Source: Sipunculus nudus (Eukaryota > Annelida > Sipuncula > Golfingiida > Sipunculidae). From it: DNA of 64,000 nt. Every line of letters starts with the position of its first letter. Positions within the stretch are counted from its first letter, which is position 1. Positions 8,179 to 37,900 of the stretch are shown piece after piece. The notes below the pieces were generated by a model. It had not been told where the DNA came from. It saw only the letters and a program-made list of their open reading frames with translations, and did not search any database. Where the stretch lies: the NCBI GenBank assembly GCA_026874595.1, contig CM049316.1, forward strand, positions 28,751,339 through 28,815,338, read 5' to 3'. Position numbers and translations under genes: made by a program.

Positions 8179-8775
8179 GTATATATTCTGTTGTGACATA
8201 ATGTATCATTCTAGTCTCTATAATTATGAATTTAAGTTTAAACAGTTTCTCACATCATTTCACTGAAATTAACATAACACGTGTTAACATGTATTGTCAG
8301 TGAATATTATTTATCCGGTTGACTGTTGAATATCTTGAAACATCTTAATTATTGATTTCTAATTATTAATTATGGCTTTCATAATATATGTCACACTATA
8401 GTATATATTAGTACCAGCTATAGGTACTATTTCATACACATGTGGGTGATTCCAAGTGCAATTTTAATGACAAATATGATTTTTTTTTTCAACGCTTTTT
8501 TACTAGTTTCCTTAGAATAGATTTTTCCTTCACCTTTTCTCCACATCCCCATAGGTGCGGCCATACAATACAGTACTTAAGTATTTTTTTCTTATAATCA
8601 TAGATCAACAAACGAAGGCAACATGGTTAGATTAGTTTTTTAATACTTAAATTGATGTCACTTTTGCCCAAATAAAATTTAATTTTAAGATATACTTATC
8701 AGTTTGTTAGTATTGCCAACATTCAGATCGACAGCAGGGAGAGAAACGAACAGATATAATTTTTGTGAAAAATAT
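8175..8775. other. Noncoding AT-rich stretch
   Basis: No gene, RNA or clear mobile element was recognised. Confidence 0.5.
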
Positions 8776-12017: not shown

Positions 12018-12237
12018 GTGGTCATCATTGATTTTCAATCGTTCTGCGTACACGAGGACGACCAAGTAGCGGTTTACGACGGAGAAACCACCGGAAGTAC
12101 CATGATACTCTCACACACCGGATGTGCGCTTCCCAGGGCAGTAGTGACGTCAGACTTCCTCATGTTAATAACCTTCCGCTCTTCCGGTCTAACAACCAGC
12201 AGCGGCTTCCGGTTGGGCTGGCAGTTCATGGAACCTG
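12018..12237 (+). CDS. CUB A, second half (220-nt exon)
   Basis: The acceptor is TATTCAG before GTG and the donor is CCTG/gtatta. It is phase 0 in and phase 1 out. It reads VVIIDFQSFCVHEDDQVAVY, then a DG turn, TGC, LITF and GFRLGWQF, the normal order of a CUB C-terminal half. It is the most diverged of the seven second halves and one residue shorter in the Cys-Asp spacing. No matching first half was found to the left, so its partner exon is outside the window, missed or lost. Confidence 0.85.
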
Positions 12238-15200
12238 GTATTACATTTCTTTCTTTTTAGTATTTTAGACACTCAATATCCCTAAACATTTAGATGGTTC
12301 CTTTCGCTGAAGGCCTACATGTTAAGAACCGATTCATTATTATGCTGATTAATAAATATCGCTGACAGGTTCATGATTAAAAAAAAGAAATGTTTTGTTT
12401 TTTTTTTAAATATGTAACATTAAGCGAAAACTCATTTACGAAACGAGTTGTTTAAAAATCTTTCTGGAATGCGAGGATAAAAAGTAACCCATCTGTTGCC
12501 TCCACCTATGAGATATGTTTTCAGACGTGTTTGTTCGTTTGTTGGCTGACTGGGCGTTTGTCTGTTATCCAGTTTCCACGAAAATTTGTAGAAAGGTTAG
12601 GGATAGGTCAGAAAATCCTTACCTGAATTTTGCGCAGATTTATTTTTTTTTCTAAGCTGAGTTTTGTGCCGTGTGAATTGTGATTTCAATTGCGCAAAAT
12701 GTGTGTAAGGAAGAGCTGGATATAGGTCCGTCTTTTCGAAATTTAAGCGTAAAACAACGCAAGAGGTGAAAACCTCAACTCAACCACAGTTATTACCCAT
12801 AAAAACGACCTCTTGAACAAAACTTAAATCGTATGCATTCTTCCATCCCTACTCAATGATTAGTGTATGATATCTACCATGATGCTAACCTATCAAATAA
12901 AATTGAATGCATAATTTTTTTCATCAGTAACGCTATTGATTTTTTTGTGTGTAAAACAAGCATAATGGCTCCATTTCTACCGATACCTTAACTAAACTCT
13001 TCCCATAACTTGCTTTAGATGTGATAAAATTTGCATCCTACAGTTTGTGGACATCCTCTGGTACCGGAAATGATAGAGGGTGATGGGATTTCTGGGAACT
13101 TGACCTCCTTAAATTGGCCAAACCCCTATCCCACCAACATGAACTGTGTCTGGCAGATGAAGGCAGCGGCAGGACAGGTAAGCAAACCGCAGGCACCAGA
13201 CACAACCATTTAGTAGGAAGGGACGATTTTACAAGAATCAGTGGGATCCCCAACAGACAGAATTTGGTCCAAGTACAATGAACGTACTCGAGTACTTATA
13301 GAGTACTTATAGAGTACTCGAGTACAAGTATGAGTATTTTAGCTATTTTGATGACAGTCTGTTTGATGTCATTATAGTTTTTTAATTAATATATGAATCT
13401 TATGAAATGTCTACTCAAGTTGTTTATTTTACATGTAACTAATACAAAATTTAAAGCCATAAGAGCTACTTCACTTTTAAATAAGAAATATTATTTTGGA
13501 CAATCTGATATTTGTTCTGAGATTTTATTATAAATCTAAAATGTAAGGAATTGCTGATTAAAAATGATAAATACTACTGTGGCTAGTTACTGTTTTAATT
13601 AAAAATGATATCAGCCCTGTGACATTCTAAATACGCATACAATGCTGATAAGTTGTACGTTGTCAGTGTTCACTTCTGCAATTATATATAATCAAAGCAA
13701 ATTCTTAATATCGTCTAATAAAATTTATAATCAGTTTAAATATTATCTCATTATTAATAGGTGAAATTTAAAATACCTCAGTAAAAATTAATTTTCTATA
13801 ACGCAAGCCCACATGTACGAAATTGATTTACTCAATGCGAATGGCGGTAATGATCCCTTATGAGTCCCTCTTAATGCATCCCTTCAAGTTTAGAAGTTTA
13901 GTTATGCTAGTTTTAATTAGGAGTTTATGTGTGTTAATATAGAGTTATATATACATACATCTTCTTAGCATTCCTGGGTATATATATACACCCATTGACT
14001 ATGAGTGGATTATTATTAAAAAAGCAGGGTACATACTAGAGCTGGATCCCTTATAGTCCGGTTATACCAATTTTAATTGGAAGTTTCTATATATATATAT
14101 ATATTTATTCGTACAAGGAAGTACAGTACATTATATGCAATGAAAAGAAATATGAAATAAATGAGAGATATACAGAAAGAAGGAAGGAAAAATGAAAGTT
14201 CAGTCCGTACCTATTACAAAATCGGATGATAATAAATCAATTAGCGTTTTAACCTCATCGGAGGTCAAATGCGAGGTACATATCCCATCTTTGCATTCTA
14301 TCAATTCTGACAGTAAATCTAAGTTAATGGATGTTGTTACCATAATCAACTGTATCTTAAGTATCTTTATATTTCTAATGTCTATGTGTTATAAGCATGG
14401 GTCGAATAAGTTAACAACGGAGGCTAGCAATCGGTAAAATGCAGATTTCTTGTTTTTATTTTGTTATTTTTATATTTTTCACAGATGGTTAGCCTACAGT
14501 TTAACAGCTTCTGTACAGAAAACACCCGTGATTACCTGAGAGTTTATGAAGGTACAAGTCAGACGGACCCTGAAATATATTCCCTCAGCGGTTGCTTCGA
14601 TGTCCCAAACGTCATGACGGCGCGTAATGAAATGCTCCTGACCTTCACCAGCGACAGCAGCGCCCCCTATCCAGGCTTCAATATCTACTATGCATTTGTT
14701 CCAGGTAGGTTCTGTGTATAATTTCACATTAGATCATGTAATGTATATGTGTGCATTTTCTCTTATCACAATTAATATTTAACTGAATTTTGATTAATTA
14801 CCAAATACCAAATATCATTTCTTTCGTCCGTTTAATATGTATCTTTAATATGGAAAATATATTTTTTTGTTATTAATGTAAAACAAATACGATTTTGCAC
14901 CACCATTACTGTGAGGGATTGCAACCATTAGCTATGTTCTGGTACACATTTGTAAACACAATGATAATATACAACATTTTAAATACAACACATAGAGAGT
15001 TCGAGATATAACTGACCATAGAGCAGTAGCTGACCAGATCTGAGATATAACAACATAATATATCCGGGCAAGTTTCCAAACTGACATGAAGTGAGTCTCA
15101 CTAGATGGCCACTCAATCAACACGACCACCCTCCTACGACGACCAGTTATTGTGGTCGCTGCAAGCATACTACCCAACTGTCAAAACGACTGCAGTCCGT

Positions 15201-18200
15201 CCCACCAAGGGGCGCCCATTGTTTTATGGCGATCAGGGGCGTATCCGAGATTTTTTAAAGGGGAAGGTCCAACCTAGGAAGACTATAAGAAAACCTAAAA
15301 ATGGGTCTCTGGTCCGGAAAGGAAGGGTCCACCAGGTCGCAAAATTTGGTTTAAAACCTCAAAAAGGTTGTTTAAAAAAAGGAGTGTCCGGACCCGCCTC
15401 GGGATCCGCCACTGGCAAAATTTCTGACAGAAAGTTTTTTTTTTAATTAAAAAAAAATTAAATTATTTTTTGTTGTTGGAGGTAACCGCCTCCATTTTGT
15501 TAATGCTAGCTTAACTAAGTATATGTACATCTGCAGATTTCCATTCCGGTTTCGGACTACTTGACAGAGCAGTATCACATTCCTCTCATTTTATATCCTG
15601 GCGTTAACCAGGCCTGGTGATTACTGCACCTGCGGGCCCTGGGTTGGTAATCATACCACCGAGGACCCCCGAAAGGCGCACTCGTTTGTAAGTGAAACAC
15701 GGCCGTTGGGTACAACCTTCCCATTAAGCCTGCAGAGCGCTCACCCTGGGTTTGGGCCGACCGTGAAAAACCGGCAGAAAGTTACGTGAATTCCGACAAT
15801 GGATAATGAACTGTTTTGGAAACCCTAATGAGTGTACACTTTGCAACTTTCTATACGTTTCCTCGTGTAGTCATAGCGCAGGATTTCATGTTTTCTTAGC
15901 CGATAAAATATGTTACTATATCTATGGTACCTAATACTCGAATTATCCAATCAACGTCCGGCAAAATGTGTCCATAACCTTGTCTCTTCAGTCAATATGT
16001 TGTGACTGTTTTCTAACATATTAACGCTATTGTTTCACTTAAATTCTTTGCAAGGTATGGTGGGTGGGGGGGGGGGGGGGTCCTTATGAATAATTGCCAG
16101 AAAAAAGTACAAAATATTTTTATAATTTAGAAAAAAGAAATGGAAATAAGAGACATGTTAAGCTTTTGGTTAAGGATAATGGAAATGCTGCAACAGGTAT
16201 AAATAATATTTATGCTGAATCCTCTCAAGTTAATGATACAGTAAATCTCGAAACCAATTGTTTTTAAATTAATAAAACTACTCCTAGATAAACAAATGAA
16301 CATCAGGAGAACTGTGAAGGCTATTTAACAGTTTAGGAATGTTTTAAAGTATCAAAAACATTTAAAAATGACAAATCAACAGGGAATGATGGATCAACAA
16401 CAGAGTTCTATATAACCTTTTAGAATAAAACAGGATCTATAATTGTGCATAGTTTTAATTTTTCACTTGATCAGGGTAACCTGACTCCATCACAGAAGCA
16501 GTCTGTAATTACATTAATTGAGAAGAAAGATAAAGATCGAACAAAAATAAAGAATTGGCGTCCAATCTCGTTATTAAACACCGATTATAAAATAATGACT
16601 AAAGCTTTATCTTTTTGAGTTAAACATGTTTTGTCAAATATCATACATAGAAACCAATTTTGATATGTATAAAAACATCTATGAAAGAGGCAATAAGAAC
16701 CATCTTAGATTCTTTTTTGATATAGATTAATGTAAAATAAAAGGTTTATTGGCGACAATCGAATTTGAAAACGCGTTCGATACAGTGGAATTGTAATTTT
16801 GCAGCTTTAAAAAGATTTAATTTTGGTGAATCATTTGTTAAATGGGTTAAAGTATTGTATTAAGATGTGGAAGCTTGTATCATGAATAATTGCCATTCAT
16901 CAGGATATTTTACAATAGGAAGAGGAGATAGATAAGGAGACCCCTTATCAACGAACTTATGTATTATCTGTTTAGAAATAACTGCAGTTAATATTAGTAA
17001 TTATCAAGATATTCATGGTATAAAGATTTAAAATAAGGAGGTAAAATTGGTTTTATATGCTGATGACATCACTGTTATTTTAAAAGATTTGGACTTCCTT
17101 AAAACTGTTCTAGATTTGTTCAGAGAGTTTACTAAATGTGCAGGTTTACACATTAATAATGCTAAAACTGAAGCAAAGGGGTTAGGAAAAAACAAAGATA
17201 GCAATAGTAAACCTTTAGGGTTAGTGTGGTCAAAATGTGTAAAGGTGCTGGGAACATATATATCATATAATACGGAATTGAGTAATACATTAAATTTTGA
17301 AAATAAAATTCATAGCATATGTTATATAACAAACATGTAGAAGCAAAGAAATTTTACATTCCAAGGGAAAATTTTAATAGCTAAAAAACTATGTATTTCT
17401 AAACTCACTGATCTCTTGGCTTATTTCAATATGCCAGAAACTTATAAAGGGAGATTAAATAATATATTATGGTGTTTTATATGAATGGGACAGAAAAAGA
17501 AAAGGGTTAAAAGAGATCTGCTGATAAAGCCATTTGAAAATATGGGGGGGGGGGGGGGCTGAATATGTTAAACATTGATTGCTATATAAAAGCGCAACAG
17601 GTAATGTGGATCAAAAGATATTTAGCCAAACCAAAAAAAGATTGGAAATTGTGTATAGACTCATTGTGTGATATATATGAGAATACGAAATTACTGTTAG
17701 AGTGTTATTATACCAAAAACCGTCTAAAAGGTTCAATGCCAGATGTAAACATAGATATGTTTATGGCATGGAAACAATTTTGTATTCCAGAGTTATCTTA
17801 TTGCATATGTAATAATAAGGATATCAAAATAAATGGAAAACCGTTCTTCTGTAAGTCACTACATCAGTCAGGTTTAACATACGTAAAACACTTATTTGGT
17901 ATGAATGGGAATCCAGTAAGTTTTAAAGAGTGGGAAGAGGAAGGAGCAAAACAATGTAATTATTTGTTTTATAGGTCCATAATTAAACAAAGTAACATTT
18001 TGAATCACTGCAGATATAATGGACAGTTTATGATACAAAATGTATTTAATTGCCAAACAAGACAAGGACCAGTTGCAGTTGAAAATGTTATTGCAAAGCA
18101 GGTATATGATTATTTTATTAGTCTAGTAAAAACACAGGGTTCCAGTACAAGGCAAAAGTTTAATAATAAATATAATGTAACAGATGAAGAGTGGGGTCTT

Positions 18201-19762
18201 TTATATACCAATAGCCTAACATTATGTAAGATAAAAGAAAGTGAGAGTTTTCAGTTTAAAAAAGCTCCATAATTTTTTATATCTTAAAAATAGATTGTAT
18301 AAGTTTGGTTTAACTGAAGACCCATATTGAAGGTTTTGCCATACAGAGTTAGAAATATATGAGCCTTTCTTTTGTAATTGTTCTACTGTTAAACGGTTTT
18401 GGCAAGATATAAGCATTTTTTATGGTTTACCAATTAATTTATTTACAAATTAGAATATTATTTAAGGAATATCTGAAAAGAATATAAGAACAGAAAATAA
18501 AATTCTTATACATGCAAAAGCTTTAATATATAGAACTAAAGATTCTGTTCAGATAAACCTTGAACACTTTAAAAAGAACATGGGTTATCAAAGGAAGATT
18601 GAATGTACAGATAAGCCTGCAGAAAAAAAACAAATAAATGGAAACTTTTGTAGCAAAATATGAGAAGGACAATGGAAACTTGATCCATACCTACACAATA
18701 GATTATTTGTATGACACAATATATTTTACATATAAAGGAAAACAATAATATTGAGCTTGTTTTACTTAACATTACAAGTATTTCTAAAATTATATATAGA
18801 TGGAAAAGGTGAAAAGTTGTTAGTCATACTATACTTTGAACAAAAAGGTTAATATTTATGTGTATGTGTATTTTGTATTGAGTACTCTTTTTGTATGTTT
18901 TTTTTTTTTTTTTTTTTTGTCACTGTTTGGTGTACTGTCTTAAATCATGTGTGTTATTACTGTCTGTAATTTCTTTGGTCAATAAAAAAAAATAATTGCT
19001 GGATTACTTTGTTGATTAACTGACAGTTAATATTTCAAAATAATTTGACTTTGTTAATAAATATCCCTTAAACCCGATGGACAACCCTAGATGGAAAAGT
19101 TTAATGTGCCGTAGTTAAAAAAATCGACATTGCCAATATGGGTGATCAAAAGTTTGTCGTCCTATTTTCTGGACTCTTACATATATTTTGTCCTGAATAT
19201 ATGTTAAATCTGTCGTCACTGTGGTCATTCCCATGTTTGTAAGCATTTTTATCACGACCATATATATATAAAAAAATCTTCGACGGTTCTGACAGTTTTG
19301 TGCCGTATATTATAACCGGCTCGTGCATGGGAACACCCGGCTGGTGTTATGAAGGTATGAACCATGCTGGTGTCATGACATTTGCTTACTCATTCTTAAT
19401 GAGGTCACTAAGTGCGGGGATTTCTTGCGTTCTGTTAGTTACCTTTAAGCCCACACCTCCTTTATGGATTCATATAAGGAGTTCTTGTGTGGTATCTTTA
19501 TGCCTTAGGGTATTTTTATTCAATAATAATATTATAATTTAATGATTATCATGATTATAATATAATATAGTATTATGTAGTGACAGAATAAAGTATAAAT
19601 ACCACAATTTAATTGTATATGGGTCGATTTAATAGTTATTTGTTTGCCTAGAGATTGTTTTACACGGTGTATAATATGATACATGTATTATACAAAAAAT
19701 ATAATATAATATAAAATATAATGTAATATAATATGATGCAATATAAATTATATGATTTAATG

Positions 19763-19837
<75 letters not shown>

Positions 19838-22800: not shown

Positions 22801-23242
22801 GTGCGATTTTTGCACGACTTCCAGCCGATCAAATGCGATTTTTAGACGTGCGAACTTACGCATCCAGACCACACATCTCGGACTATTTACTTATTCATTA
22901 TTTTAGATAGTAGTATATACAGCAGGTTTCAAGGTAATATACAGACATTGTATAAAATAATAAATTATTAATTGATCATCGGTCGTTCTTATTTTCCAAT
23001 CATCGATTATGATTTTGAAACCAATTCTAACTACTAATAGAGATACATGTATATATATCAAGGGACCATATTTCTGAATTTTTCAACTGTCCCTTTTTGT
23101 TCTTTTATATTTCATATATATATATAAACCATTTGCCCATGCAATGTATATATATATATAATATATATATATACATTATATATATATATATATAAACCAT
23201 TTGCCCATGCAATGTATATATATATATATAATATATATATAC

Positions 23243-23281
<39 letters not shown>

Positions 23282-26200: not shown

Positions 26201-27053
26201 TAGCCAATCCCACGGGGTAAAGGTTGAGCCTATCGTTTATATCCACGTGTTTATAACATGGGTCGGGGGGGGCGCAAAAATGGCTACCGGTCGTAATCAA
26301 TATACTTCCGGCAAAGGCAGCTGCTTCAATTCACAATAAAGAGTTTGTTAAATTACTAAAATTGCATTGCTTCTTATGTCCGCATGAAATTCAACAAGGG
26401 ATCTTTCAATACCTCGGTTGAATGTTTTTTTTCTGAATGTTAACATTACCACAAGTACCTTGTGTACAAGCAGCCTGTAGATAAAATGCTTATACATCAG
26501 TCAAAGCTGCGTTATAAGAACCTTTCCAAGCAGGTTTTACCTTCAGTTCCTTAATCTGTATATGCAGAGTAAGCCGTTATCACATAAATACTACAAATAA
26601 AGCAGGTGAATAGTGGCTTTAAGACCAAAGCAGAGCATTTTTAAATCATTTCTGAGATTAAGATAGATTGACTAAAGATAATCTGAGCTGTAGTATTACG
26701 TTTTCATGATTGCATATTGTAAATGTATATTGTCCCTTCAACTTTGTTTTGCTTTTGTCAATTAAGCATCAAAAGGTTCTTACAAATTTAAAATTTTATC
26801 TCGAGAAGTTTTTTTTGTGCGTGCTTATTTTTTTTGCGAAATGTTATCTCAAGATTTGAGATATTATCTGGAGACACTCGAGATCTAAAACAAAATTCTG
26901 TGTACTAAATCAGCCACCGTAGTTTGGATATCTCCATATGATTTCCTGTTGTAATTGACCCTACACCACCAGTTCCAGTAGCGTCAATTTATCTTCCAGG
27001 TTGGAGAAATACTCGCAGACTGACACACACTCACACTCACACACTATAACGCT

Positions 27054-27130
<77 letters not shown>

Positions 27131-30100
27131 ATATTCCATTTAAGCGTCTGCATGATACATTTCACATATATTAGCGTCTGTATGACACATTTCAAATATA
27201 TTAACGTCTCGATGACAATTACAAATATATTAGCTTCTGTATGACACATTTCAAATATATAAGCGTCTGTATGATACATTTCAAATAAATATACTTATCA
27301 CATTTCAAGTATATTACATTTAACCGTAAGGTTTAGAAAATAAGGTAATATATTTCCCGTGTAAAATATTTCATAGTATTCCCAAACTAATTAATGGAAC
27401 CACACCTGTAATTTTAAATATTAATAAATTTCATTTGCAATATGTAAATATTATTCTCTTAATAGGGGGTGGGTGGGTTGGGGTGGTTACATTGACCATC
27501 CCCTTGCCAAAAAGTGGGAGGGGAATATATACCCCCATCCACCAATTTATTGACGCCCCCGATCAGTTCAATTTTATCGAGTGTACTTGTTAGTACACTC
27601 CGTAGGCAACAGTTATATACACTACCTTCTAAATCTCCACATTTTTACCTCTCATTTTCATAGCAAGATTCTCTGGGTTTCACCACCAGGGCTGGCAATG
27701 AATTGTAATCAGAACAAAGACAGCGGTTTAAACGAAGGAGATTTATTACGAGTGCAGTGTATAACTCCAGCGTAAGAAGTGACTCCAGGATGTAGAAAAG
27801 CATACACTGGATAAACCTTGAAGAAAATTATCGCTAAAATGATATGAGAAGTTGCAAAATTTTTATTTATTCACAGGCTGCGGGAGTCCTACAGCACCTA
27901 TTGATATTTGGTATGAACAGTCCGGCTGGCTCGCGTCACCAAACTACCCTAGTAACTACCCTAACAACCTGAACTGTGGCTGGCGGTTGAACGCTTATCC
28001 GGACCAGGTGGGCCGAAAATTTAATGAGCCTCTGATATTTAAGGCTCAATTGTATAGTTTGATGTGTGCGTGTGTATCGGTCTGCGTATTAAAACTGTGT
28101 ACTCGAAATTTACAGTGCCAGCGATTTAGGAAAAGCAGGATTAATTCCTTGTGGCCATAACCTCTATTACGTGATCAAAGAAATAAAATGGACGGTTACC
28201 TTAGGCCACGTGACCAGCTGATGCATACGTATTGGCCAATAAAATATAGGATTTAAAAATACAAGGCCAGAGAGAAACCAACAAAATATTTCGAGATAAA
28301 ATCATTTTGTCAGGGTTGCTCTTTGATCAAGGGTCAAATAAAGTCATATTAATGGTTGCTCTGATGGAACAAAACATGCTGAAGAATATAGTTTTTCCTA
28401 GAGCAAGAGGTTCAGGATTTGCAAGTACCTAACCAAAACAAATCTTCACTCGCCATTGCGAACGGCTTAAAAACTGCATGGGTTGTGTGATCCTAGACAT
28501 GGCGGGCATAGAGGGAAGGGGCGCAAGGGGTTTTGGATGGTGGAGGCCCTCCCCCTCCCCCCCCCCCCATTCGACCAAACGATACAAAATTAAAAAAATG
28601 AGCTCTTAATACCGTAAACGGAGCTTGATTTCCCATCATGATGCCAAAACAGCCGAAAATTTCAAGAAAAAAAGTTAATACAGTATCTGAAGGGAAATCC
28701 ACTCCCATATAGTCACCCCATTTACGTCATCGTTTTCTAAAATACTGTATTCCTCCTATGACGTCATCAAGATGGACCTGTATGCAATGCGGAAATTTTT
28801 CTTTGTAGTAAGGCCCTACATCCATGTATTTTTTCACGACTTCTGCACAGATAATTGCTGTGACCACGTGCGCCTCTATGATGGCCGCACGACATCCGAC
28901 AGCTTGATCACGACAATCAACGGATGTTCCTAACTTCACCACTGGATCTCGTCCACCTTTTATGACATACTGTATCCCTCCTATCACATCATCAAGATGC
29001 ACCTGTATGAAATACGGATTTTTTTCTTTGTAGTACATCCATGTAAACTTTCACGACTTCTGCACGGAGAGCTGCTGTGACCACGTGCGTCTCTATGACG
29101 GCCGCACGACATCCGACAGTCAGATCGCGACAATCAGCGGATGTTACTACCCTGGTTCCTGGTTCTCGTCAGGATCGTATATGTTAATTACCTTCACATC
29201 AGATCAAGTGGTCAATTACAGAGGGTTCAACATGACGTGGGAATTCCTATATAACGGTATGAAAATATGCCAGTCTTGTTTTCTGTCTTTTCCCCTTCCT
29301 CGCCATTTGCTCCCCAAGGATACATAATTACTGAAACGTTGCAGGACACCGAAACCTATATAAATCATATATAAACCTATATTAAAAAGATATGGATAAC
29401 CCGTAAAATATATATCCCTTAAACTAAAATGCTTCTGTTATATAGTGTTATCTAACCTAAATGAGGAGGAAATTATGCTGTAATGACCAATAAACTGTTA
29501 TATCCTCTGCGTTATCAGAAGTTCTTTCGAGAGTAGTTTGTAAGTGTCAAGTATACATGCGGAATAGCCCTCATAATAGAGATATCCGAAACGCTGATTG
29601 TACGTTAGAGTCGAAAGGTGATTTTGTGTATACACTAAGTATATCTAATTTGCTATCCTTTCTCACATGTGATCTTTTTTTGTCGTTTACCTGTCATGAT
29701 ACCTAAATAAGCATCCTTTTCGTTGGGGGAAATATAACTGAAATGACGATATTTCCTCATGCACTCTAAGTGGATGCTGATTTTTTTAGGGTAGTTTCAT
29801 GTGTTTTTCTATTTCGTTGCAGTAAGCACAGACACAGCCGTCACTGATTGGTACACCTCTGTCCCATCTGGTTAGTTTTATGTATTTTCATTACATTTTG
29901 CCCGGCATTTGAATATGAAAAAAAAAAATCTGAAATTATTTATAACAAGTATCATGATAAAATAGTCTATCACAGTTCATCATAAGATTTGATACCGTAC
30001 ACATTAGGACTTCTTAGCCTCGTACGGTTCTTTCCGACCCGGGGGTCATCCCTTGAAGGTGTGCAGTTACTCTGGAACATCGCTGGCTCTGAATGATGAG

Positions 30101-33100
30101 GCTGCTATGGGACTAACATGCTACTAATGTTACATTTGAAGCAGATCCCTTACTTGATTGCAATTCTGCTCTTTCAACGAGCCCGGCTGTAAATGCCTAA
30201 AGCATCGTCTGCCCTCTGTCTGCTTTGTTTAATATTACCTTACAACAAGTATTTTTCCAAACACTGAACAATATGAATTTCTAAGTATTTTTATTATATA
30301 TACTTATATTTATTATCATTATTTAACATGATTATTTATGCACTTCAGGCTATGATTTTGATTTTTAAATTTCTCATATCTTTCCTTATTATGGCCGATG
30401 TATATAGAAATTTATACACTAACACGAACTATTAAAAAATTATTGCTAACATGAAAAAAAGGTGTAATAGTTTTTATTTATTTACAGCCTGCGGGAGTCC
30501 TACAGCACCTATTGATTACTGGTATGAACAGTCCGGCTGGATCGCGTCACCGAACTACCCTAGTAACTACCCTAATAACCTGAACTGTGGCTGGCGGCTA
30601 ATCGCTTATCCGTGGCAGGTAGAGCCAAAAATTCAATTAGCCTGTGGTATTTATGGCACCATTATATTTTATTTCTGTCTGATAAAAACTGTGATATGCG
30701 TGTGCTTGTTGTTAACTTTGTGTAGCCGATTTTTACGGTGCCTACGGGTTTTGGGACAATCTGATTTCATTGCTTGTGACCACTACGGAAGTAGGTAACC
30801 GATGACATTTTGGGATGGTTAAATTAACCTGGTGGAAAATTAAGAATCTGAACAATAAATTATTTTGGGTGAAAATTACTTGCACTTTTGAGTTCGGTTC
30901 ACATAAAGATACATTAAACGTTTCCTCGTTGGTTGTTGTAAAAACCTACATAGAAATAAAATTTATCCTAACGCAAAAGGCAAGTCGCATTCGCACGTTA
31001 CAATTTATAACGTGCGCATAAAGGTATGCATATGTCCTCTATATTTATCTTCCCATCCCCGAACATTACAAACTCTCCACCTATCTTTTGTATATGCGGA
31101 TGGATTAATATTGTAAAGGCATTAACGCTGGATATCAAACAGAGCGAAAGTTATAAAAGAAAATATATCAGTTTAACAATATCTAAATAATAGACGGGGT
31201 AGCACAGCATTTTAACCGTGAACGTTACATATGGCAATTGTTATGGCAGTTACTCTGTGATATGATCATGGACCCCACCCCCTAACAAAATACAGAAAAC
31301 ATAAAATTGGAAAATAGAAATATAAGCGTTTAAACTGAAAAACAGAGTCGGATTTGCATAATGATGCTTTTCAACAACTATAGTAGTGCCTCATTTTTCA
31401 GAAAAGTTCATACAGTATCTGAAGGGGTGCCCACTCCCATAATCATCCCCTTTGCGCCCCCGTTTTCTTAAATCCTGCATTCGTCCCTTGATATAAAGCA
31501 TTATCTCTATGAAGTAAGAAATGAAGCGTGAACTGTATGAAATATGCATTTTTTTCTTTGTAGTATATCTATGTGAACTTTCACGACTTTTGCACGGAGA
31601 ATTGTTGTGACCACGTGCGTCTCTATGACGGCCGCTCGACATCCGACAATCTGATCACGACGATCAATGGATGTTGGTATCCTCACTCCTGGTTCTCGTC
31701 AGGATCGTATATGTTAATTACCTTTACCACCGACAGCAGTGTCACTTACAGAGGATTCAACATGACGTGGGAATTTCATGATCAAGGTAGTGTAAAGTCG
31801 GCCTTTTGAAACCAGATCGGCTAAGTCTAAACTTAGCCGAACCGATTTCATAAGGAAGGAGCGCAGTGAATGGTTTAAAGCCAGTCTGGTTTTCTGTCTT
31901 ATTCCTTTGCTTGCCATTTGCTCCCGAAACATACATACTTACGGAGTCGTTGCAGGACACCGAAACCAACCTGTTTACACAAAAAGCTGTGGGTAAACTA
32001 TAAAATGTGATTTTGTAAGCAGCGGAGAAATAATGTATCCCAAAAGCTAAAATGCTTCTCGAATATATCGTTTTATAAACTGATCGAGGAGGAAATTATG
32101 GTATAATAAACAACATACTACCACATCCCATGTGTTAACAGAAGTTCTTTCAAGAGTAGTTTTCAATTATACATGCGAAATGGCCTTCATAATAAAGATA
32201 TCTGATATGTCAGAAATGGGTAGATCAATTTAGTTAGACGCTAATTGCACATTAAAATCGAAAAGTAATTTTGTGTTTAGACCAACTTTCTCATGTATGG
32301 ACTTTGATTATCCTTTTCCTGTGATGATACCTTATCTTAATGTAACTTAAATGATAATATTTCAATTTGTTATGTAATCTAAATGGATGTTAATGTTTGG
32401 AGGCAGTTTTATGTGTTTTTTCCTTCGTTGCAGTAACCACAGACACAGCCGTCACTGATATGTATACCTCTGTCCCATCTGGTTAGTTTTGATCTACTTT
32501 TATTTATTTTGCCTCGAATTTCAATAAAGTATCATGATAAAACAGTTCGCCATAAGATTGATTACCGTAAAAATTACGACTACTAGGTCTCTTACGATTG
32601 TTTTCGACTTGGAGATCATCCTAGGATGGATTGCAGTCACCCTGGAGCCGAGTTGGATCTGACTGTTGAGGTGCTACGAGAATGACATGTTACTTATGTT
32701 ACCTTTACAGTTGGTCCCTTGCTTGCTTGCAATTCCGTCAAAGAGATCGCGTGTCACCCTAAAGCCGCGTTTTCTCTGAGTGATCTGGTTCCTACGAGAA
32801 TGACTTACTACTGATGTTACCTGTGGGGTTTGTCCCTTTCTTGCTCACAGTCCTGTTCTTTCAATGAGCCCCCGTCTCATCATTGTGAAGTGATCGAAGA
32901 GAATGATTTTTCACTTCTCTTGTCTACCATCTCCTCTTGATTAGAAATGTTTAAATATGGCACCAAACCCTTATATTTTGAAATGATACAGCAAGGGAAT
33001 AAGCTTTGTGATTTAAGTTGATCGTGTATGTTCACAGGGTTACTCTGTCGTATTGAAATGTACGCATGAGGTCTGGTATAATGCCATTCTCCCAAGTGTG

Positions 33101-36100
33101 AAGAGGCGGTTATAGGAAGTTATCAGGGTCCAAACTGGGATAATGTTCACTCATGGGCAACTCTCTTTCATCATCTGTTGTATGATTCATTATTGTTGCA
33201 TGTAAAGGTCTTGGACCGTCACACAAGTCTTCTTTAGAACTATTGCCTGCTTCATGCCTTCGCAGGAGCAAAAATGAGTAATTTAACCTTGTGTGTTGAC
33301 AAACCAAATAAGAGCTTTATATCGATCCTGGTGCGGATGTGGATCCGTAGTCATTGCATGATGGAAATAAAGAGCTAATGAAGAGTTCATTGCTCTACTC
33401 TGCAGATCTCTACAATTGGCTGAACTGAGATGACCATGGCCTGAGATCCACAATGTAACTGTCTCTGAAGCTAGAATATGACGGTGCGCCGCAAGAGTAA
33501 ACTAAATACGTTTGGAGAAATGTATATTTGCATCTAAACAATACAGTAAGCTTTGTCACAGACTAACTCTTGATGCCGGGATTCTAGAGGGCCCTCTTTG
33601 CAACTTTAACGGGGACATCAAGACATCCATCCCTCCGAGAGATATTTGATTTTATGAAAACACGTAGAATTTGCTGAGCTAACCCTGATTGGGTCAAAAA
33701 CAAACTTCTATACATGACCGATAGGAATTCGAGTGCACCAAGGCTGGTTCATCTGCTTATACGGCACTTCAGCAGATTCTTTGGCGTAACTTTTCTAAGA
33801 AAAAAGTCTTCTAAGAAGTTAATCCGCAAATCCGTCGTTCTTTATGGATCATCTCTCATTAACCTAGCTTTGGAATCTACAATTTTTCGTACCTTGACAC
33901 CTTTAGTACCCTGGGTAGTAACATCTACCCTGCCCGGTGAGGAAAAGGTATTGAAAGTGAGGTTTTGCTTCCTTTGTATTTTTCCTATAATAAGTTAAGA
34001 AGCAGGGTCTATGTAACACTTACAGATTACACGTGATAGAAGGGCCAGCTAGAGACCAATCAGGCAAGGGGTACTACTCCGGATGTTTATACATATTCAT
34101 TAGAGGAATGAATTAATGAATGATTCCGAGGTTCACTTGTGGGCCTCGAGTAAAGGTTATTCTAGCTCTGGACACGGCGGGAGTGCAAGTCGCTCGAGAC
34201 CCCTGAGGTCCGCTTCGGCCTGGGTTCAGCTGCTGCTGAGGACCAAACCTGTAATGCTTTAAAGGATACTTCAGCCAAAGCCTGGAGGGAGGGATTTTCG
34301 GTGGTCCACAGCTGGTCCAAAGAATTAGACATATGTACTAATTTGGAAAGTACGTCCTACCTGTTGTGATTGAGCGTAGGCAATTTCAATGTGACACGCT
34401 ACCATCTTTTCATGGTAAAACCATGCTCTCCTTTGTACTTTGGAACGTTCCTTTGCCTGAGTGAGTTGCAGTCGCTCTCTTCCTGCCGAAGTTTCTATGT
34501 ATCGTTCTCCAGATTGCAACAAATTCTATTTTCAATTTCAGCAGTTTTTCTCTGATCACATCTGTCATTTGGATTTGGAAATCCCCCTCACAGTATATGC
34601 AGCAACTTGTTTCTGGTATCTCCTGATGCTGGGACTTCAATAACATTCCCTGTGCATAGTCACTCAAGAGAGCTTTAATGACTTAGTATGTGTAATACCC
34701 TCTAATTTTCCTGGTGGTAAAAATGAAATTTGAAAACTGATGATTTAAAAAGACGGACCTTCTTACTCTCCGTTTGTGAAGATGGTTTTCTCTTAACAAT
34801 GGTAAATGTGCTTCATATTATGACTCATGGCTATGATTCTGTTTACAGTGTGTGGGTCTCCATCCCAACCCATCGAGATAACGTATCAGACCAACGGCTC
34901 GATAGCATCTCCAAATTATCCCGGAAATTACTCAAGCTACCTGAACTGTGCCTGGCGAATTACGGTCACTTATGGACAGGTATGTCGAAATAGAGTTCCC
35001 GTTTAAGAAGGGAATCGGACAAAGATAACTGAACAGAAACATTCATAATAATACATATGAACATTAACATGAATGGAGTTACTTTAACACAAACGTATAT
35101 AAATATATATTATTTTAATAATTAAGAACATTTTTATTTTGAGATATTCTTCGAAATTCCTAAAAAAAAGTACGGAACTCACTTTTATCGCATTGAATTT
35201 GAATTAAATGTACAGGAAGCCCCTGAATCTTTTTCTTTACATCAGTATGTTGGGGTTCTCTTCCGGGACTTCTGCACACAGAGTGGATACGATTACGTTC
35301 ATATTTATGACGGCACTACCACGTCACACAACCTGATAGCTAACCTTTCCGGCTGTTACAATCCGGGACCCTTCAACTCGTCAGGAGAGGCCATTTTAAT
35401 TACCTTCAGTAGCGGCGGCGTGGGGAACGACCGGGGTTTCTACCTGGAGTGGGAGGCACTCAACGACACATTCAGTCCAGCACCAATCTGTAGGTATATA
35501 AAATCAGTGGCAAGGCCAAATCTAGTTTCACTCTAGTTTCAGTCTGCGATATCCTGGTTTATTATACACGATAGACGGGAGAGGGTTGTATGATGTAGTT
35601 AATGGGATGTAAATTTCGCGCGATTTTGACACTGATGTTGTATTCTTTTTCAAAGATAGAACCACATTTTCGCGGTAGGTGCACAGCAGCACATGGCAAT
35701 TTGGCGATAATTGTCTTAACATATTATTTAACATAATCACGAGATTTAACACAAAGGCTGATGATTGACTAAGGCCTAATATTAGACTAAAGCCTAGGTC
35801 GCACACGCCACTGAGAACCATGTTTTCCAACAGAGGCCCAATCATCATACACTTAACACGTTATTTTGGAGACTTAATTACACCTCATGATTTAGAGATA
35901 CATGGTAAGGAATGAAAGCATATTTGTTTTCATACACAAGATGATAGATAGGAGATGGTGTTTGTATACACATAAGCTTTGAAGAAAAACCAGATTATAA
36001 AGCGATTAAGAAGGATCTTTTTTTTCATATTCAATCCTTCATTCTTTCGTTACTTAAGGTTTCAGCGTATACCTCCAGTTACTAAATATGTTGATTGATA

Positions 36101-37900
36101 CAGGTTTACGTTTAATTTGTATACTTGATGAAGATTTATTCTGTTTATTTTATTAATTTTAGTTATTTCATTTCCAGCATGCGGGTCTCCATCGTTTCCC
36201 ATTGAATTCTGGTACGGAGCTGGTGGTTCAATAGCGTCACCAAACTACCCAGGCAATTATTTTAACTACCTTAACTGTGGATGGCGAATCATAGTTAATG
36301 TATGGCAGGTAGGTTGATCATCTAGATAAAAATGTCATTTGTGTAAAGGTATTATAATGCTTCGTTCTTTACCTCTGGTTCGTTCCCAGTTAACAGAATA
36401 AAAGGCCCTGGGACCAGATGTCGTTTTGTCCTTGTAACCAAACAAAAACCGATTTATACTTTGTTTCGTGTCACTTTTGTTCAATTTTATTTAACAATAA
36501 AATCTATTATTTTCACTCGTAAAATCTTAGTTTTTAATTATTTCCTCCCTGGATTCCGTCATTGGTATATATGAAAGTGAAGGTCGCCACGTGGACAATG
36601 GGTTTATTCAAAGAGCGCCGGTTCGCCGGTGGTAAATACCACTGGGACAACTTGTCGAACGCTACTTTCCATTTGTCATCTCTTATTTACCATATTACCC
36701 AGAGGTAACGAATACAGCATGAGATGTTACAAAGTTAACTGAACTTCAGGATAATGTCAACTATATATGGTTTACACCAAAACGAGGTTACATAACATGT
36801 TTAGTGTCCTTGCAGACCTTGATCACCTTTTACCGCAAGTTTTTTTATTCTTTTTTTTACCATCTAGAATTTCAACATTGGTTTATCATGGTAAATATTC
36901 AAAACATATATAAAGTTGCAAAAATATCAAATGTGATTCAGGTTGGATGACTATAGCGTCAATTATTGCAAAAAACTGTAACACAATAATTATTTGTTTA
37001 AATGCATGATTAATAAACATAATCTTTATAAGGGAGATTCAGAAATAATATAGTTCCGGGAATCGATCTCAAATTATAATTTTTGGCAAATGAAAAAAAA
37101 AAAATTCCAGTAATGAAACGATGAAAATATGAAACCTTGTGTTGAAAATTTCTTTCACACAAACATTTTACCTGCAGATATATAGTATCTTGAATTATAA
37201 AAAATAAAACTTCCACGTAGCACATTGAAAAGTCATTACGTATCTGCTTCATTCGTAAATCACTTTCTAAAATTTCGCGATTTTCACCTTTTCATTGTTT
37301 CGCAAGGGTTCCATTTTCATACAAAAGACACAGAGTATGATTATATAAAACAAAGCATGTACAAAGTCTAAATATTGCACGGGAACGGAGGAGAAATTAT
37401 TGTTCATCAATGGCAGGTAATTTGAAAGATCTGATATCATTTAAAAAAAAGTAATCCTTGAATATACACGACCTAACATTTTTTGAGTTATCACTTTTTA
37501 CCGTTCTACTTGCTCTCGAGGATGAGACCTCTTATTCACGAAGGATTTATTTTAACGATATTTTCGTAAATATTGCGAACAATTGCGAACAAAAAGACAA
37601 CCACAGAATTAATATCCGTTTCGTATTCCGTTATGTATGTACGTCTGTAGAAACTTAAAAATTTTACGCTTCTTTTAGAACGTTGGTATCGAGTTCCTCG
37701 ACTTCTGCACGGAGAGTTTTTATGATTACGTTCGTATTTACGACGGACCAACTACGTCCTATAACCAACTCGCACACCTCACCGGCTGTTCCGGCCCGGC
37801 AGGCGTGTACAATTCGAGTGGACAGTACCTGCTGATCACGTTCACATCTGATTACACGGTGAACAACAGGGGCTTTTACCTGGACTGGGTGGCCCATTAA
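12018..37900 (+). CDS. Multi-CUB secreted protein gene (3' part, 15 exons)
   Basis: The joined exons give 2457 nt with no stop until TAA at 37898-37900. They encode a chain of CUB domains: half A, then B, C, D, linker, E, linker, F and G. All introns inside CUBs are phase 0 and all introns between CUBs are phase 1. These symmetric 1-1 modules are the known pattern for shuffled extracellular domains. Each complete CUB has the four expected cysteines (CGSP, NC-W, DFC, GC). Most have acidic residues at the positions that bind calcium in the cbCUB subclass. Several N-x-S/T sequons occur (NMTW in D and E, NSSG in F and G). There is no membrane segment after CUB G, so the end is secreted. The 5' end is missing. 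Orthology to a named gene is not claimed; CUB proteins act in extracellular matrix, fertilisation, development and defence. Confidence 0.88.
12238..13043. other. Intron A-B
   Basis: Phase 1 intron of 806 bp. AT-rich with T and A runs. No repeat or regulatory element was recognised. Confidence 0.75.
13044..13177 (+). CDS. CUB B, first half (134-nt exon)
   Basis: The acceptor is CCTACAG and the donor is GGACAG/gtaagc. The G left by exon A completes GTT, giving VCGHPLVPEM, then SGNLTSLNWPNPYPTNMNCV and a final AAGQ. It carries the first two CUB cysteines. It is one codon longer than the other first halves, and Trp replaces the usual Tyr of the N-Y-P motif. Confidence 0.88.
13178..14484. other. 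Intron inside CUB B
   Basis: Phase 0 intron of about 1.3 kb. At 13284-13332 there is a nested palindromic block: GTACTCGAGTAC occurs twice around GTACTTATAGA repeats. It resembles the GAGTCC/GAGTAC-rich ends of the element at 40177-40690. The rest is AT-rich with a short (TA)n at about 14086-14104. Confidence 0.7.
14485..14704 (+). CDS. CUB B, second half (220-nt exon)
   Basis: The acceptor is TTTTTCACAG and the donor is CCAG/gtaggt. It reads MVSLQFNSFCTENTRDYLRV, then YEG, LSGC, LLTFTSDSS and the strand ending YYAFVPG. It is exactly as long as exons A and C (220 nt). The cbCUB-type acidic residue eight positions before the Asp of RDY is Ser here, so calcium binding is doubtful in this domain. 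Confidence 0.9.
14705..15539. other. Intron B-C, left part: repeat debris
   Basis: Phase 1 intron of 5.3 kb in total. This part has a degenerate GC-richer segment at about 15230-15410 (GGGGCGTATCCGAGATT and onward). The style recurs near 11080-11300 and 28500-28560 and suggests old transposon ends. A short GGAGG...CCTCC palindrome is near 15479. Confidence 0.5.
15540..15785 (+). repeat. Interspersed repeat R2, copy 1
   Basis: This GC-rich block starts CCGGTTTCGGACTAC and ends GACCGTGAAAAACC. An inverted copy is at 44147-44375. Shared words include GAAAGGCGCACTC/GAGTGTGCCTTTC, CTGCAGAGCG, and TTCACGGTC. It is unlike the surrounding AT-rich intron. The class was not recognised. Confidence 0.75.
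16130..18995 (+). pseudogene. Decayed L1/Tx1-like LINE, same strand as the host gene
   Basis: Reverse-transcriptase blocks appear in order with many stops and frame changes: KNDKSTGNDGSTTEFY, SQKQSVITLIEKKDKD, IKNWRPISLLNTDYKIMTKA, then the YADD catalytic motif at 17056-17067 followed by LHINNAKTEA. A 235-residue open frame at 17565-18272 holds the C-terminal region after the polymerase (KAQQVMWIKRYLAKPKKDWK). The 3' end shows a long T run at about 18900-18918 and a final AATAAAAAAAAA near 18983. L1/Tx1-type placement is from motif wording. The element is dead and lies in a phase 1 intron. Confidence 0.82.
18996..19765. other. Intron B-C, right part
   Basis: AT-rich sequence with many TATAATATAA words near 19540-19740. 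No element was recognised. Confidence 0.5.
19766..19848. repeat. Compound (TA)n(GA)n microsatellite
   Basis: About 17 TA units are followed by about 20 GA units with a few interruptions. It lies about 120 bp before the CUB C first-half exon. Confidence 0.95.
19966..20096 (+). CDS. CUB C, first half (131-nt exon) with GC donor
   Basis: The acceptor is CATATAAG. With the preceding G the exon reads GCGSPSSPVVISGP, then LTSPNYPNLYPATLDCAWRF and ends GSQDQ. Length and ending match the other first halves exactly if the donor is CAG/gcaagt, the known GC-AG intron consensus. Reading on to the next GT would add GCA A and break the frame with the next exon. Confidence 0.87.
20097..20647. other. Intron inside CUB C, left part
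   Basis: A 14-C run at 20238-20251 is followed by A11. The rest is AT-rich and unrecognised. Confidence 0.5.
20648..21010. repeat. CG-word-rich repeat with inverted ends
   Basis: The left end has CCCCTTTCACAAATG and the right end has GGGGCCATTTGTGC, a loose inverted pair. Between them TTGCACGA, GCGATTGG, GAGTGGTCGT and relatives recur in both orientations. Similar words recur at about 22690-22860. The pattern is that of a MITE with sub-terminal transposase-site repeats, but no family is named. Confidence 0.45.
21478..22150 (-). pseudogene. Gag-like (zinc-knuckle) retrotransposon ORF1 remnant
   Basis: On the minus strand the frame reads IPFCGRCRKWDHPSRYCQNK. This contains an exact C-x2-C-x4-H-x4-C zinc knuckle (22049-22090). 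A second, imperfect Cys/His cluster follows. Downstream on that strand is a Thr/Pro/Gln-rich low-complexity part (TTTPTGTQLKTTPNTPIEV) and then a helical tail, interrupted by a stop. This layout fits ORF1/gag of a non-LTR or LTR retroelement. It lies antisense inside an intron of the CUB gene. Confidence 0.5.
22151..23104. other. Intron inside CUB C, middle part
   Basis: This stretch may include the upstream part of the gag-like remnant (minus strand, up to about 22560) and the second patch of GTTGCA/CGATTTTTGCACGA words at 22690-22860. No intact feature was found. Confidence 0.4.
23105..23290. repeat. Minisatellite mixing a unique 20-mer and (TA)n
   Basis: AACCATTTGCCCATGCAATG occurs three times (about 23127, 23197 and 23278, the last with one change). 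Each pair is separated by (TA)n-ATAATA-(TA)n-CATTATA. The unit length of 70-81 bp varies through the TA parts. Confidence 0.92.
23291..24618. other. Intron inside CUB C, right part
   Basis: No gene was recognised. A short stem CGCTCGC...GCGAGCG is at about 24298-24326 in a GC-richer patch. Confidence 0.5.
24619..24838 (+). CDS. CUB C, second half (220-nt exon)
   Basis: The acceptor is CCCACACAG and the donor is ACTA/gtaagt. It reads VVQLSFTDFCTESCCDVITI, then QDG, HSGC, LLLFTSDGS and the end strand VNYEFQGSTS. It keeps the Asp-x7-Asp and later Asp positions of calcium-binding CUBs and has an extra Cys-Cys pair after DFCTES, also seen in CUBs D and E. Confidence 0.9.
24839..25924. other. Intron C-D, left part
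   Basis: A short CA-rich patch follows the donor. CGGTTTCCTCCACCC near 25848 is of a type common in animal SINEs. No gene was found. Confidence 0.5.
25925..26921. mobile_element. MITE-like element with TA target duplication
   Basis: The ends are TA-CGGTGGCTGAT (25925-25937) and ATCAGCCACCG-TA (26909-26921), an exact 11-bp inverted pair with TA on both sides, as for Tc1/mariner-type targets. Near both ends there are palindromes of the type ATCTCGAGATCTCGAG (about 25973-25998 and 26042-26060, and about 26796-26885). The element is about 1 kb with no transposase frame. Confidence 0.75.
27055..27126. repeat. (TA)n microsatellite
   Basis: About 36 TA units, directly followed by a 30-bp minisatellite. 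Confidence 0.95.
27143..27310. repeat. 30-bp minisatellite
   Basis: About five to six units of the type AGCGTCTGTATGACACATTT plus CAAATATATT start near 27143, 27173, 27203, 27232 and 27263, so the period is about 30 bp. Units differ by a few substitutions. Confidence 0.9.
27465..27565. repeat. G/C-rich repeat R3, copy 1
   Basis: The block TTGACCATCCCC, GGGAGGGG, TATACCCCC is shared with about 44745-44850 and partly with about 48525-48575. It looks like the end of an interspersed element. Confidence 0.55.
27566..27876. other. Intron C-D, right end
   Basis: Unique sequence. The last roughly 80 bp resemble the region before the CUB E first-half exon and mark the left part of the tandem-duplicated module. 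Confidence 0.55.
27877..28007 (+). CDS. CUB D, first half (131-nt exon)
   Basis: The acceptor is TTATTCACAG and the donor is GACCAG/gtgggc. After the codon completed by exon C it reads CGSPTAPIDIWYEQSGWLAS, then PNYPSNYPNNLNCGWRL and ends AYPDQ. It differs from the CUB E first half at only about four residues, so the duplication is recent or homogenised. Confidence 0.93.
28008..29033. other. Intron inside CUB D, with dead exon copy
   Basis: Phase 0 intron of 1026 bp. The first part is homologous to the intron after the CUB E first half. A C-rich run lies at 28551-28568. A tandem duplication near the right end created the pseudo-exon described separately. Confidence 0.7.
28736..28966 (+). pseudogene. 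Dead tandem copy of the CUB D second-half exon
   Basis: A direct repeat of about 225 bp covers the intron end and the start of the following exon. Compare TACTGTATTCCTCC at 28743 with TACTGTATCCCTCC at 28968. The copy keeps TTTCTTTGTAG but then has 8 extra bases before TACATCCATGTA. It reads HDFCTDNCCDHVRLYDGRTT and on to GCS, then a TAA stop. It lacks the distal half of the exon and has no donor. Including it would break the frame. Confidence 0.88.
29034..29256 (+). CDS. CUB D, second half (223-nt exon)
   Basis: The acceptor is TTTCTTTGTAG and the donor is AACG/gtatga. It reads YIHVNFHDFCTESCCDHVRL, then YDGRTTSD, ISGCYYPGSWFSSGSYMLI, FTSDQVVNYRGF and NMTWEFLYNG. All three acidic cbCUB positions are kept, with Asp in place of the usual Glu. 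NMT is a potential glycosylation site. Confidence 0.93.
29257..29822. other. Intron D to linker 1
   Basis: Phase 1 intron. Much of it aligns by eye with the intron at 31787-32433 (for example GAGGAGGAAATTATG and AGAAGTTCTTTC blocks), as expected for the module duplication. Confidence 0.75.
29823..29870 (+). CDS. Linker exon 1 (48 nt, symmetric 1-1)
   Basis: The acceptor is TTTCGTTGCAG and the donor is ATCTG/gttagt. With the preceding G it reads VSTDTAVTDWYTSVPSG. It is a Thr/Ser-rich spacer between CUB D and CUB E. At 48 nt with equal phases it can be skipped without changing the frame. The same exon recurs at 32434 with two residue changes, and conservation of both frame and splice sites supports it as real. 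Confidence 0.8.
29871..30487. other. Intron linker 1 to CUB E
   Basis: Phase 1 intron. The block at about 30010-30200 resembles about 32590-32870, the same intron of the next module. A junction of the 2.6-kb duplication units should lie in or near this intron. Confidence 0.65.
30488..30618 (+). CDS. CUB E, first half (131-nt exon)
   Basis: The acceptor is TTATTTACAG and the donor is TGGCAG/gtagag. It reads ACGSPTAPIDYWYEQSGWIA, then SPNYPSNYPNNLNCGWRL and ends AYPWQ. It starts exactly 2,611 bp after the CUB D first half and is nearly identical to it. Confidence 0.93.
30619..31563. other. Intron inside CUB E
   Basis: Phase 0 intron of 945 bp, homologous at both ends to the intron inside CUB D. 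It lacks the extra exon fragment, which explains most of the length difference between modules. Confidence 0.75.
31564..31786 (+). CDS. CUB E, second half (223-nt exon)
   Basis: The acceptor is TTTCTTTGTAG and the donor is CAAG/gtagtg. It reads YIYVNFHDFCTENCCDHVRL, then YDGRSTSD, INGCWYPHSWFSSGSYMLI, FTTDSSVTYRGF and NMTWEFHDQG. It keeps the acidic triad and the extra Cys-Cys pair. Confidence 0.93.
31787..32433. other. Intron E to linker 2
   Basis: Phase 1 intron, homologous to the intron D to linker 1. A stem of the type AAACCAGATCGGCTAAG/CTTAGCCGAACCGATTT lies at about 31809-31850. Confidence 0.7.
32434..32481 (+). CDS. Linker exon 2 (48 nt, symmetric 1-1)
   Basis: The acceptor is CTTCGTTGCAG and the donor is ATCTG/gttagt. 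With the preceding G it reads VTTDTAVTDMYTSVPSG. It lies 2,611 bp after linker exon 1 and separates CUB E from CUB F. Confidence 0.8.
32482..34848. other. Intron linker 2 to CUB F
   Basis: Phase 1 intron of 2.4 kb. The left part is module-duplication sequence, with a further internal repeat of the TGACTTACTACTGATGTTACC type at about 32680-32830. The right part (33.1-34.7 kb) holds the possible coding remnant listed next. Confidence 0.6.
33110..34667 (-). pseudogene. Possible decayed coding remnant, antisense
   Basis: Polar, protein-like frames occur on the minus strand. One at about 34667-34410 includes CCIYCEGDFQIQMTDVIREK. Another at about 34522-34325 includes ETSAGRERLQLTQAKERSKV. A third at 33307-33110 includes LLRRHEAGNSSKEDLCDGPR. 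They change frame and contain no motif I can name. The likeliest source is a retroelement inserted in the intron; chance frames cannot be excluded. Confidence 0.22.
34849..34979 (+). CDS. CUB F, first half (131-nt exon)
   Basis: The acceptor is TGTTTACAG and the donor is GGACAG/gtatgt. It reads VCGSPSQPIEITYQTNGSIA, then SPNYPGNYSSYLNCAWRI and ends TYGQ. NYS is a possible glycosylation site. Confidence 0.92.
34980..35245. other. Intron inside CUB F
   Basis: Phase 0 intron of 266 bp, the shortest in the gene. AT-rich with no element. Confidence 0.85.
35246..35489 (+). CDS. CUB F, second half with linker (244-nt exon)
   Basis: The acceptor is TTTACATCAG and the donor is ATCT/gtaggt. It reads YVGVLFRDFCTQSGYDYVHI, then YDGTTTSHN, LSGCYNPGPFNSSGEA, FSSGGVGNDRGF and YLEWEALNDTFSPAPI. 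It is 21 nt longer than the D and E versions because a spacer sits at its end instead of in a separate linker exon. The third acidic cbCUB position is Gly here, so calcium binding is doubtful. Confidence 0.9.
35490..36177. other. Intron F-G
   Basis: Phase 1 intron of 688 bp. No element was recognised. The open frame on its minus strand has no domain signature. Confidence 0.7.
36178..36308 (+). CDS. CUB G, first half (131-nt exon)
   Basis: The acceptor is ATTTCCAG and the donor is TGGCAG/gtaggt. It reads SCGSPSFPIEFWYGAGGSIA, then SPNYPGNYFNYLNCGWRI and ends NVWQ. Confidence 0.92.
36309..37678. other. Intron inside CUB G
   Basis: Phase 0 intron of 1370 bp. AT-rich. No mobile element was recognised. 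Confidence 0.75.
37679..37900 (+). CDS. CUB G, second half and C-terminus (terminal exon)
   Basis: The acceptor is CTTCTTTTAG. It reads NVGIEFLDFCTESFYDYVRI, then YDGPTTSYNQ, LTGCSGPAG, VYNSSGQYLLI, FTSDYTVNNRGF and YLDWVAH followed by TAA at 37898-37900. The protein ends directly after the last CUB strand, with no tail, anchor or membrane segment. Confidence 0.93.
   Translation, partial: NVGIEFLDFCTESFYDYVRIYDGPTTSYNQLAHLTGCSGPAGVYNSSGQYLLITFTSDYTVNNRGFYLDWVAH

Follow-up and report, generated by a model that had tools for sequence, protein, structure and literature searches.

The window that we analysed, a stretch of 64,000 nucleotides from the genome of Sipunculus nudus, contains a run of short open segments on its forward strand that resemble halves of CUB domains. 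This raises the question of whether these segments belong to one gene and, if so, what kind of protein that gene encodes.

Results

One reading frame across 15 exons

Exons were sought in a six-frame translation of the window, using profiles built from three 5′ halves and five 3′ halves of CUBs against open reading frames (ORFs) of at least 20 amino acids. All the halves recovered by the profiles lay on the + strand: six 5′ halves, seven full 3′ halves and a broken one. Of these, three 5′ halves and two full 3′ halves had not been among the profile seeds. The 13 CUB exons join in frame to 2361 nt without linkers, and two 48-nt exons add 96 nt, giving a model of 15 exons at 12018-37900 (+) with 2457 nt in a single frame (818 codons and TAA). 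The model comprises both half-exons of each CUB from CUB2 to CUB7, the 3′ half-exon alone for CUB1, and a matching pair of 48-nt linker exons. These exons and two related features are as follows.

12018-12237, +, CUB1 3′ half-exon (Pfam CUB on the ORF, E 1.8e-5; splice sites, frame)
13044-13177, +, CUB2 5′ half-exon (likeness to other 5′ halves, profile seed; splice sites, frame)
14485-14704, +, CUB2 3′ half-exon (Pfam CUB, E 1.9e-9; splice sites, frame)
19966-20096, +, CUB3 5′ half-exon with GC donor (profile of three other 5′ halves, E 1.2e-13; splice sites, frame)
24619-24838, +, CUB3 3′ half-exon (Pfam CUB, E 1.2e-9; splice sites, frame)
27877-28007, +, CUB4 5′ half-exon (Pfam CUB, E 1.5e-5; splice sites, frame)
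28817-28972, +, dead partial copy of a CUB 3′ half-exon, non-coding, in the internal intron of CUB4 (tblastn; 217-bp tandem repeat)
29034-29256, +, CUB4 3′ half-exon (Pfam CUB, E 8.7e-9; splice sites, frame)
29823-29870, +, linker exon of 48 nt, phase 1-1, about 16 residues, Ser/Thr-rich (44 of 48 bases kept between copies, ungapped)
30488-30618, +, CUB5 5′ half-exon (Pfam CUB, E 6.8e-5; splice sites, frame)
31564-31786, +, CUB5 3′ half-exon (profile of five other 3′ halves, E 2e-35; splice sites, frame)
32434-32481, +, linker exon of 48 nt, phase 1-1, copy of 29823-29870 (repeat search; splice sites, frame)
34849-34979, +, CUB6 5′ half-exon (profile of three other 5′ halves, E 7.3e-16; splice sites, frame)
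35246-35489, +, CUB6 3′ half-exon (Pfam CUB, E 2.1e-8; splice sites, frame)
36178-36308, +, CUB7 5′ half-exon (profile of three other 5′ halves, E 2.2e-18; splice sites, frame)
37679-37900, +, CUB7 3′ half-exon ending in TAA, the C-terminus of the protein (profile of five other 3′ halves, E 4e-27; splice sites, frame)
27860-32790, +, 2.6-kb tandem duplication (CUB4 unit 27860-30230, CUB5 unit 30471-32790; introns homologous too)

No in-frame stop precedes the final codon, and all 14 junctions hold the frame with matching phases. The introns range from 266 to 5261 bases. Thirteen have GT-AG ends and one is a GC-AG intron, which follows the 5′ half-exon of CUB3 (exon end CAG, donor gcaagt at 20097-20102). 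The intron phases are, in order, 1,0,1,0,1,0,1,1,0,1,1,0,1,0, with phase 0 for introns within CUBs, phase 1 for introns between units, and phase 1-1 for the linker exons. A preliminary description of this DNA had proposed 15 exons in one frame over 2457 nt, and our independent reconstruction arrived at identical numbers with one terminal stop. It had also proposed a strict alternation of phases. The pattern of 0 within and 1 between CUBs stands, but the alternation is strict only if the 48-nt linker exons are counted with the inter-CUB gap. We regard the structure of the CUB exons, as modelled, as practically certain, and we infer that the 15-exon gene is transcribed and spliced.

CUB identity and selection

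When the joined protein was compared with a CUB profile, as the preliminary description had suggested, the 786-aa protein without linker exons matched PF00431 in seven stretches (418.5 bits, E 1.5e-127; curated cut-off 21.4 bits), and each of the seven CUB pieces also matched singly at E 0.01 or better. Both Pfam and the joined frame thus lend good support to the earlier picture of a chain of CUBs that are separated by short linkers and are each encoded by two exons. With 40000-63000 of the window as background and exons treated as independent, the probability of finding every one of the 13 CUB exons open in its required phase is about 10^-20. Exon G+C is 49.8%, compared with 36.0% for the window. 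Between CUB4 and CUB5, dN is 0.113 and dS is 0.391; because dN lies below dS (ratio about 0.29), the pair appears to be under purifying selection. Taken on its sequence, the gene looks real and under selection.

Pfam also offers narrower CUB models. PF23062, an M02D8.5-like CUB subfamily, is matched by four of the seven CUB pieces and PF23061 by three, at E 0.01 or better, but the general CUB model scores much higher than the M02D8.5-like subfamilies (72.3 versus 35.8 bits) in the one piece for which scores are shown. An open-licence literature search returned no paper on M02D8.5 together with "CUB".

Linker exons and duplication of CUB4 and CUB5

The linker exons emerged from a repeat search, in which a 75-bp block, 91% conserved between the introns after CUB4 and CUB5, includes 48 nt that look like an exon and are bordered by an acceptor and a donor. 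The two copies are identical at 44 of 48 bases, as against 74 of 103 aligned flank bases (one-sided Fisher p 0.004), and their splice sites and frame are conserved. Their own dN of 0.096 and dS of 0.091, which derive from four changes, show no protein-level selection, and about 40% of all 48-nt stretches would be open by chance. Within the gene model, the two linker exons are the least secure element.

The CUB4 and CUB5 units align at 67-78% identity in three blocks. Given that this alignment includes the introns, the duplicated unit was the whole two-exon CUB and its linker exon, and CUB4 and CUB5 arose by a 2.6-kb tandem duplication. This is the clearest and probably the youngest duplication of a module in the gene. 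A smaller event, a 217-bp tandem duplication at 28742-29149, took in the beginning of a CUB 3′ half-exon. The resulting dead copy (28817-28972) carries an in-frame stop, and its DNA is 76.5% identical to the CUB4 half and 73.8% to the CUB5 half, whereas its protein identity by tblastn is 67% and 71%, respectively, so that DNA and protein point to different parents. This copy is a fossil of unequal exchange. The gene probably grew by exon shuffling, through duplication of two-exon CUB modules that have phase-1 introns on either side.

Alternatively, the exons could belong to two or more separate genes, or to a decaying gene cluster, and not to one transcript. The dead half-exon would fit that reading, as would two long introns in the left half (5.3 and 4.5 kb), one of which contains a reverse-transcriptase fragment. 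The frame argues otherwise, with no early stop and 14 of 14 junctions joined in matching phase, as does the excess of dS over dN in the CUB4/CUB5 pair. We give separate genes or a decaying cluster very little credence, and treat the locus below as one gene.

Protein composition

The protein ends at a stop directly after CUB7. The joined protein has 32 cysteines, 11 N-glycosylation sequons and a computed pI of 4.27. Its highest 19-residue hydropathy mean is 1.35, and the hydropathy profile contains no membrane-like or strongly hydrophobic segment in the C-terminal 818 residues. Lysine occurs once in 818 residues, at position 113 in CUB2, and is absent from CUB3 to CUB7, whereas the four cubilin CUBs in the alignment have 12 in 425 residues (Fisher p 2e-5) and lysine accounts for 6.4% of sense codons in one frame of 40001-63000. 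This near-absence is found although the DNA is AT-rich.

A shifted second cysteine pair and a short loop

The first cysteine pair (C1-C2) is present in all six CUBs whose first half is in view. The second pair is shifted in seven of seven CUBs, to F-C-x-[E/Q/H] and G-C, and these two cysteines form the invariant alignment columns C53 and C80. The usual places of the second pair are before the Asp of the Y-D-Y strand and before the G of F-C-G. In addition, the loop is shortened to E-x3-D, and CUB3, CUB4 and CUB5 add a vicinal Cys-Cys within it.

For comparison with solved CUBs, we used 5 of the 47 matching chains, aligned by profile, which represent eight different CUBs (four from cubilin, two from neuropilin-2 in three chains, and two from PCPE-1). 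In these 5 of 47 chains, none of the eight CUBs has a cysteine in the F-C or G-C column, and their loops exceed the present ones by 3 to 10 residues, in most cases by four. The second cubilin CUB shown also lacks the usual second pair, yet is an accepted CUB. Because accepted CUBs without the usual pair exist, the shifted pair does not exclude membership of the family. A search of genome contigs with CUB7 as query returned four bacterial CUB loci that have the short loop and, as far as they align, no cysteine at the F-C and G-C positions. These loci served solely for this comparison of loop and cysteines; having been picked by likeness to CUB7, they do not form a neutral sample.

The F-C and G-C cysteines presumably pair with each other. 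A doubtful but possible reading is that the domains are a CUB variant with a moved second disulfide, in which the F-C-x-E/G-C pair would link other places in the fold and the loop, which normally carries the third cysteine, would be about four residues shorter and resemble the cysteine-free loop of the bacterial CUBs found. Together with the near-total loss of lysine, this could mark a lineage of repeat proteins that is adapted to particular extracellular surroundings, such as those rich in lysine-cleaving proteases or lysine cross-linking enzymes. The titles and abstract beginnings returned by searches of open-licence papers contain no mention of the shifted pair, which is not evidence that it is undescribed. 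If the shifted pair does form a disulfide, it would be a second way to lock the CUB fold, and the short loop would link animal CUBs to the bacterial ones found.

The calcium motif

The calcium-binding CUB motif is Tyr-Glu-Asp-Asp according to PMC10850435, and in Gpr126 it comprises Y61, E89, D97 and D134 (PMC6954182). In our alignment, all four residues are present in CUB2, CUB3, CUB4, CUB5 and CUB7, that is, in five of the six whole CUBs. CUB6 has Gln for Glu and Gly for the last Asp, and the visible half of CUB1 has His in the Glu column, with Glu in the next, and Ser in place of the final Asp. CUB1 and CUB6 are likely calcium-free spacers or different binders. The spacing from Glu to Asp is four here and eight in Gpr126 (E89 to D97, PMC6954182), so that calcium binding is not assured.

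The N-terminus

A profile of the six known 5′ halves, run against six frames of the whole window in search of the 5′ half of CUB1, gave no further + strand match above 4 bits. For N-terminal exons, a Pfam scan of 93 + strand ORFs of 30-63 aa starting before 12000 returned one chance-level plant match (E 0.019). Elsewhere, a C-G-H-P stretch near 23306 was considered as a CUB start, is without a CUB continuation, and was taken as chance. Since no N-terminal exon, start codon, signal peptide or CUB1 5′ half was recognised in 1-12017, the gene probably continues beyond the left edge of the window or includes upstream exons that escaped recognition. It follows that we infer, for the complete protein, both its secretion and its lack of an enzyme. 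The preliminary description of a secreted protein with no enzyme, EGF or membrane part therefore holds for the C-terminal 818 residues, where the stop follows CUB7 and no segment is strongly hydrophobic, but does not extend to the N-terminus, where an enzyme, a membrane anchor or other domains may lie.

With the N-terminus out of view, the CUBs could be the C-terminal end of a multi-domain enzyme, either astacin/tolloid-like or a serine protease such as ovochymase, with a catalytic domain left of the window and the CUBs as a substrate-binding tail. CUB tails on proteases are described in PMC9848320 and PMC10850435. Pfam found no protease domain in the upstream ORFs scanned, although short exons could be missed in this way. 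Tolloids have EGF domains, and seven CUBs in a row without EGF are unlike them, which also counts against an enzyme. We consider the enzyme origin unlikely, and return to a gene that encodes binding domains.

Remainder of the window

The Pfam scan at E 0.01 covered 197 of the 198 window ORFs of at least 64 aa, one being omitted as low-complexity. CUB matches came from 10 ORFs in one subset of 45 among the 197 scanned. RVT_1 was matched by two ORFs, at 16424-16615 (E 6.9e-4, below the family cut-off) and 17032-17337 (E 1.9e-8, above it). In 16424-18269, these RVT_1 fragments are followed by a 244-aa ORF without a Pfam match, and the segment is a LINE-like remnant in the long CUB2-CUB3 intron. 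UspB was matched by one window ORF, below cut-off, and SRTM1 by one (E 0.0063). Two ORFs at 5276-6459 on the - strand, which we take to resemble Penelope-like or related retroelement proteins, gave no Pfam match. The scanned ORFs in 37901-64000 hold no Pfam domain of note. Long TA dinucleotide arrays lie to the right of the gene (for example at 47231-47290, 48217-48284 and 55463-55520). Rfam (at the gathering threshold) and tRNA scans of the window were empty. CUB5 as a query of viral contigs gave two pattern matches, none confirmed, and no relative was found in phages, both with a pattern-based scan that finds close relatives only.

Discussion

Our analysis of the predicted protein makes it likely that the 818 codons are the 3′ part of an animal gene, in which seven tandem CUBs form the C-terminal part of an extracellular protein, and that this protein is a secreted, acidic, N-glycosylated and calcium-assisted multi-site binder. 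In such a protein, the CUBs with Tyr-Glu-Asp-Asp sites (CUB2, CUB3, CUB4, CUB5 and CUB7) would bind ligands with the help of calcium, and several CUBs that each bind weakly would together bind tightly. Secretion, calcium binding and ligand binding would all be properties of the protein as predicted.

The best solved relative is cubilin in PDB 3kq4, which we take to cover CUB5-8 (E 2.5e-46 with a single sequence and 7.2e-71 with a profile), followed by PCPE-1 and the neuropilins. Cubilin (CUBN) is an endocytic receptor with N-terminal EGF domains and 27 CUBs, and it resembles the present protein in its tandem CUBs with very short linkers and in ending in a CUB without a membrane segment. The locus might accordingly be the 3′ end of a cubilin orthologue and not encode a separate secreted protein, given that cubilin is the best match among solved structures. 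The CUBs here, however, have neither the cubilin-type loop nor the cubilin-type cysteines. The second pair is shifted in seven of seven, and none of the four aligned cubilin CUBs has the shifted cysteines; in those four, the loop leading up to the Asp has four or five additional residues, the usual third cysteine is found in three, and the usual second pair is likewise present in three and absent in one. The recent local duplication of CUB4/CUB5 also speaks against orthology, which we judge to be very unlikely, and a separate multi-CUB protein is the reading that we retain.

PCPE-1 (PDB 6fzv, E 3.7e-23) offers a second comparison. It is a non-enzyme with a netrin-like domain and two tandem CUBs that do the binding. 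The protein described here shares the tandem CUBs, but it has seven of them, whereas the PCPE-1 loop is four residues longer and its cysteines are in the usual positions.

The preliminary description had singled out this exact architecture, with its paired half-exons, as worth placing, and on this point the architecture proves ordinary. Modules of phase 1-1 are the rule in animal exon shuffling according to PMC8001218, a paper that contains the term CUB solely within reference codes, and the vertebrate SCUBE genes have one CUB encoded by two exons (PMC10214685). Since phase-1 flanks are usual in exon shuffling, two-exon CUBs are known from SCUBE, and multi-CUB relatives such as cubilin and PCPE-1 are already described, the protein belongs to a well-known kind of extracellular multi-CUB protein. 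The locus provides a worked example of how a multi-CUB gene grows by duplication of two-exon modules of phase 1-1, in which one recent duplication can still be seen alongside a dead half-exon and the paired linker exons. The two-exon CUB is common to this gene and to SCUBE1-3; in the latter, a single CUB stands after EGF and Cys-rich repeats, whereas here CUB follows CUB up to the C-terminus.
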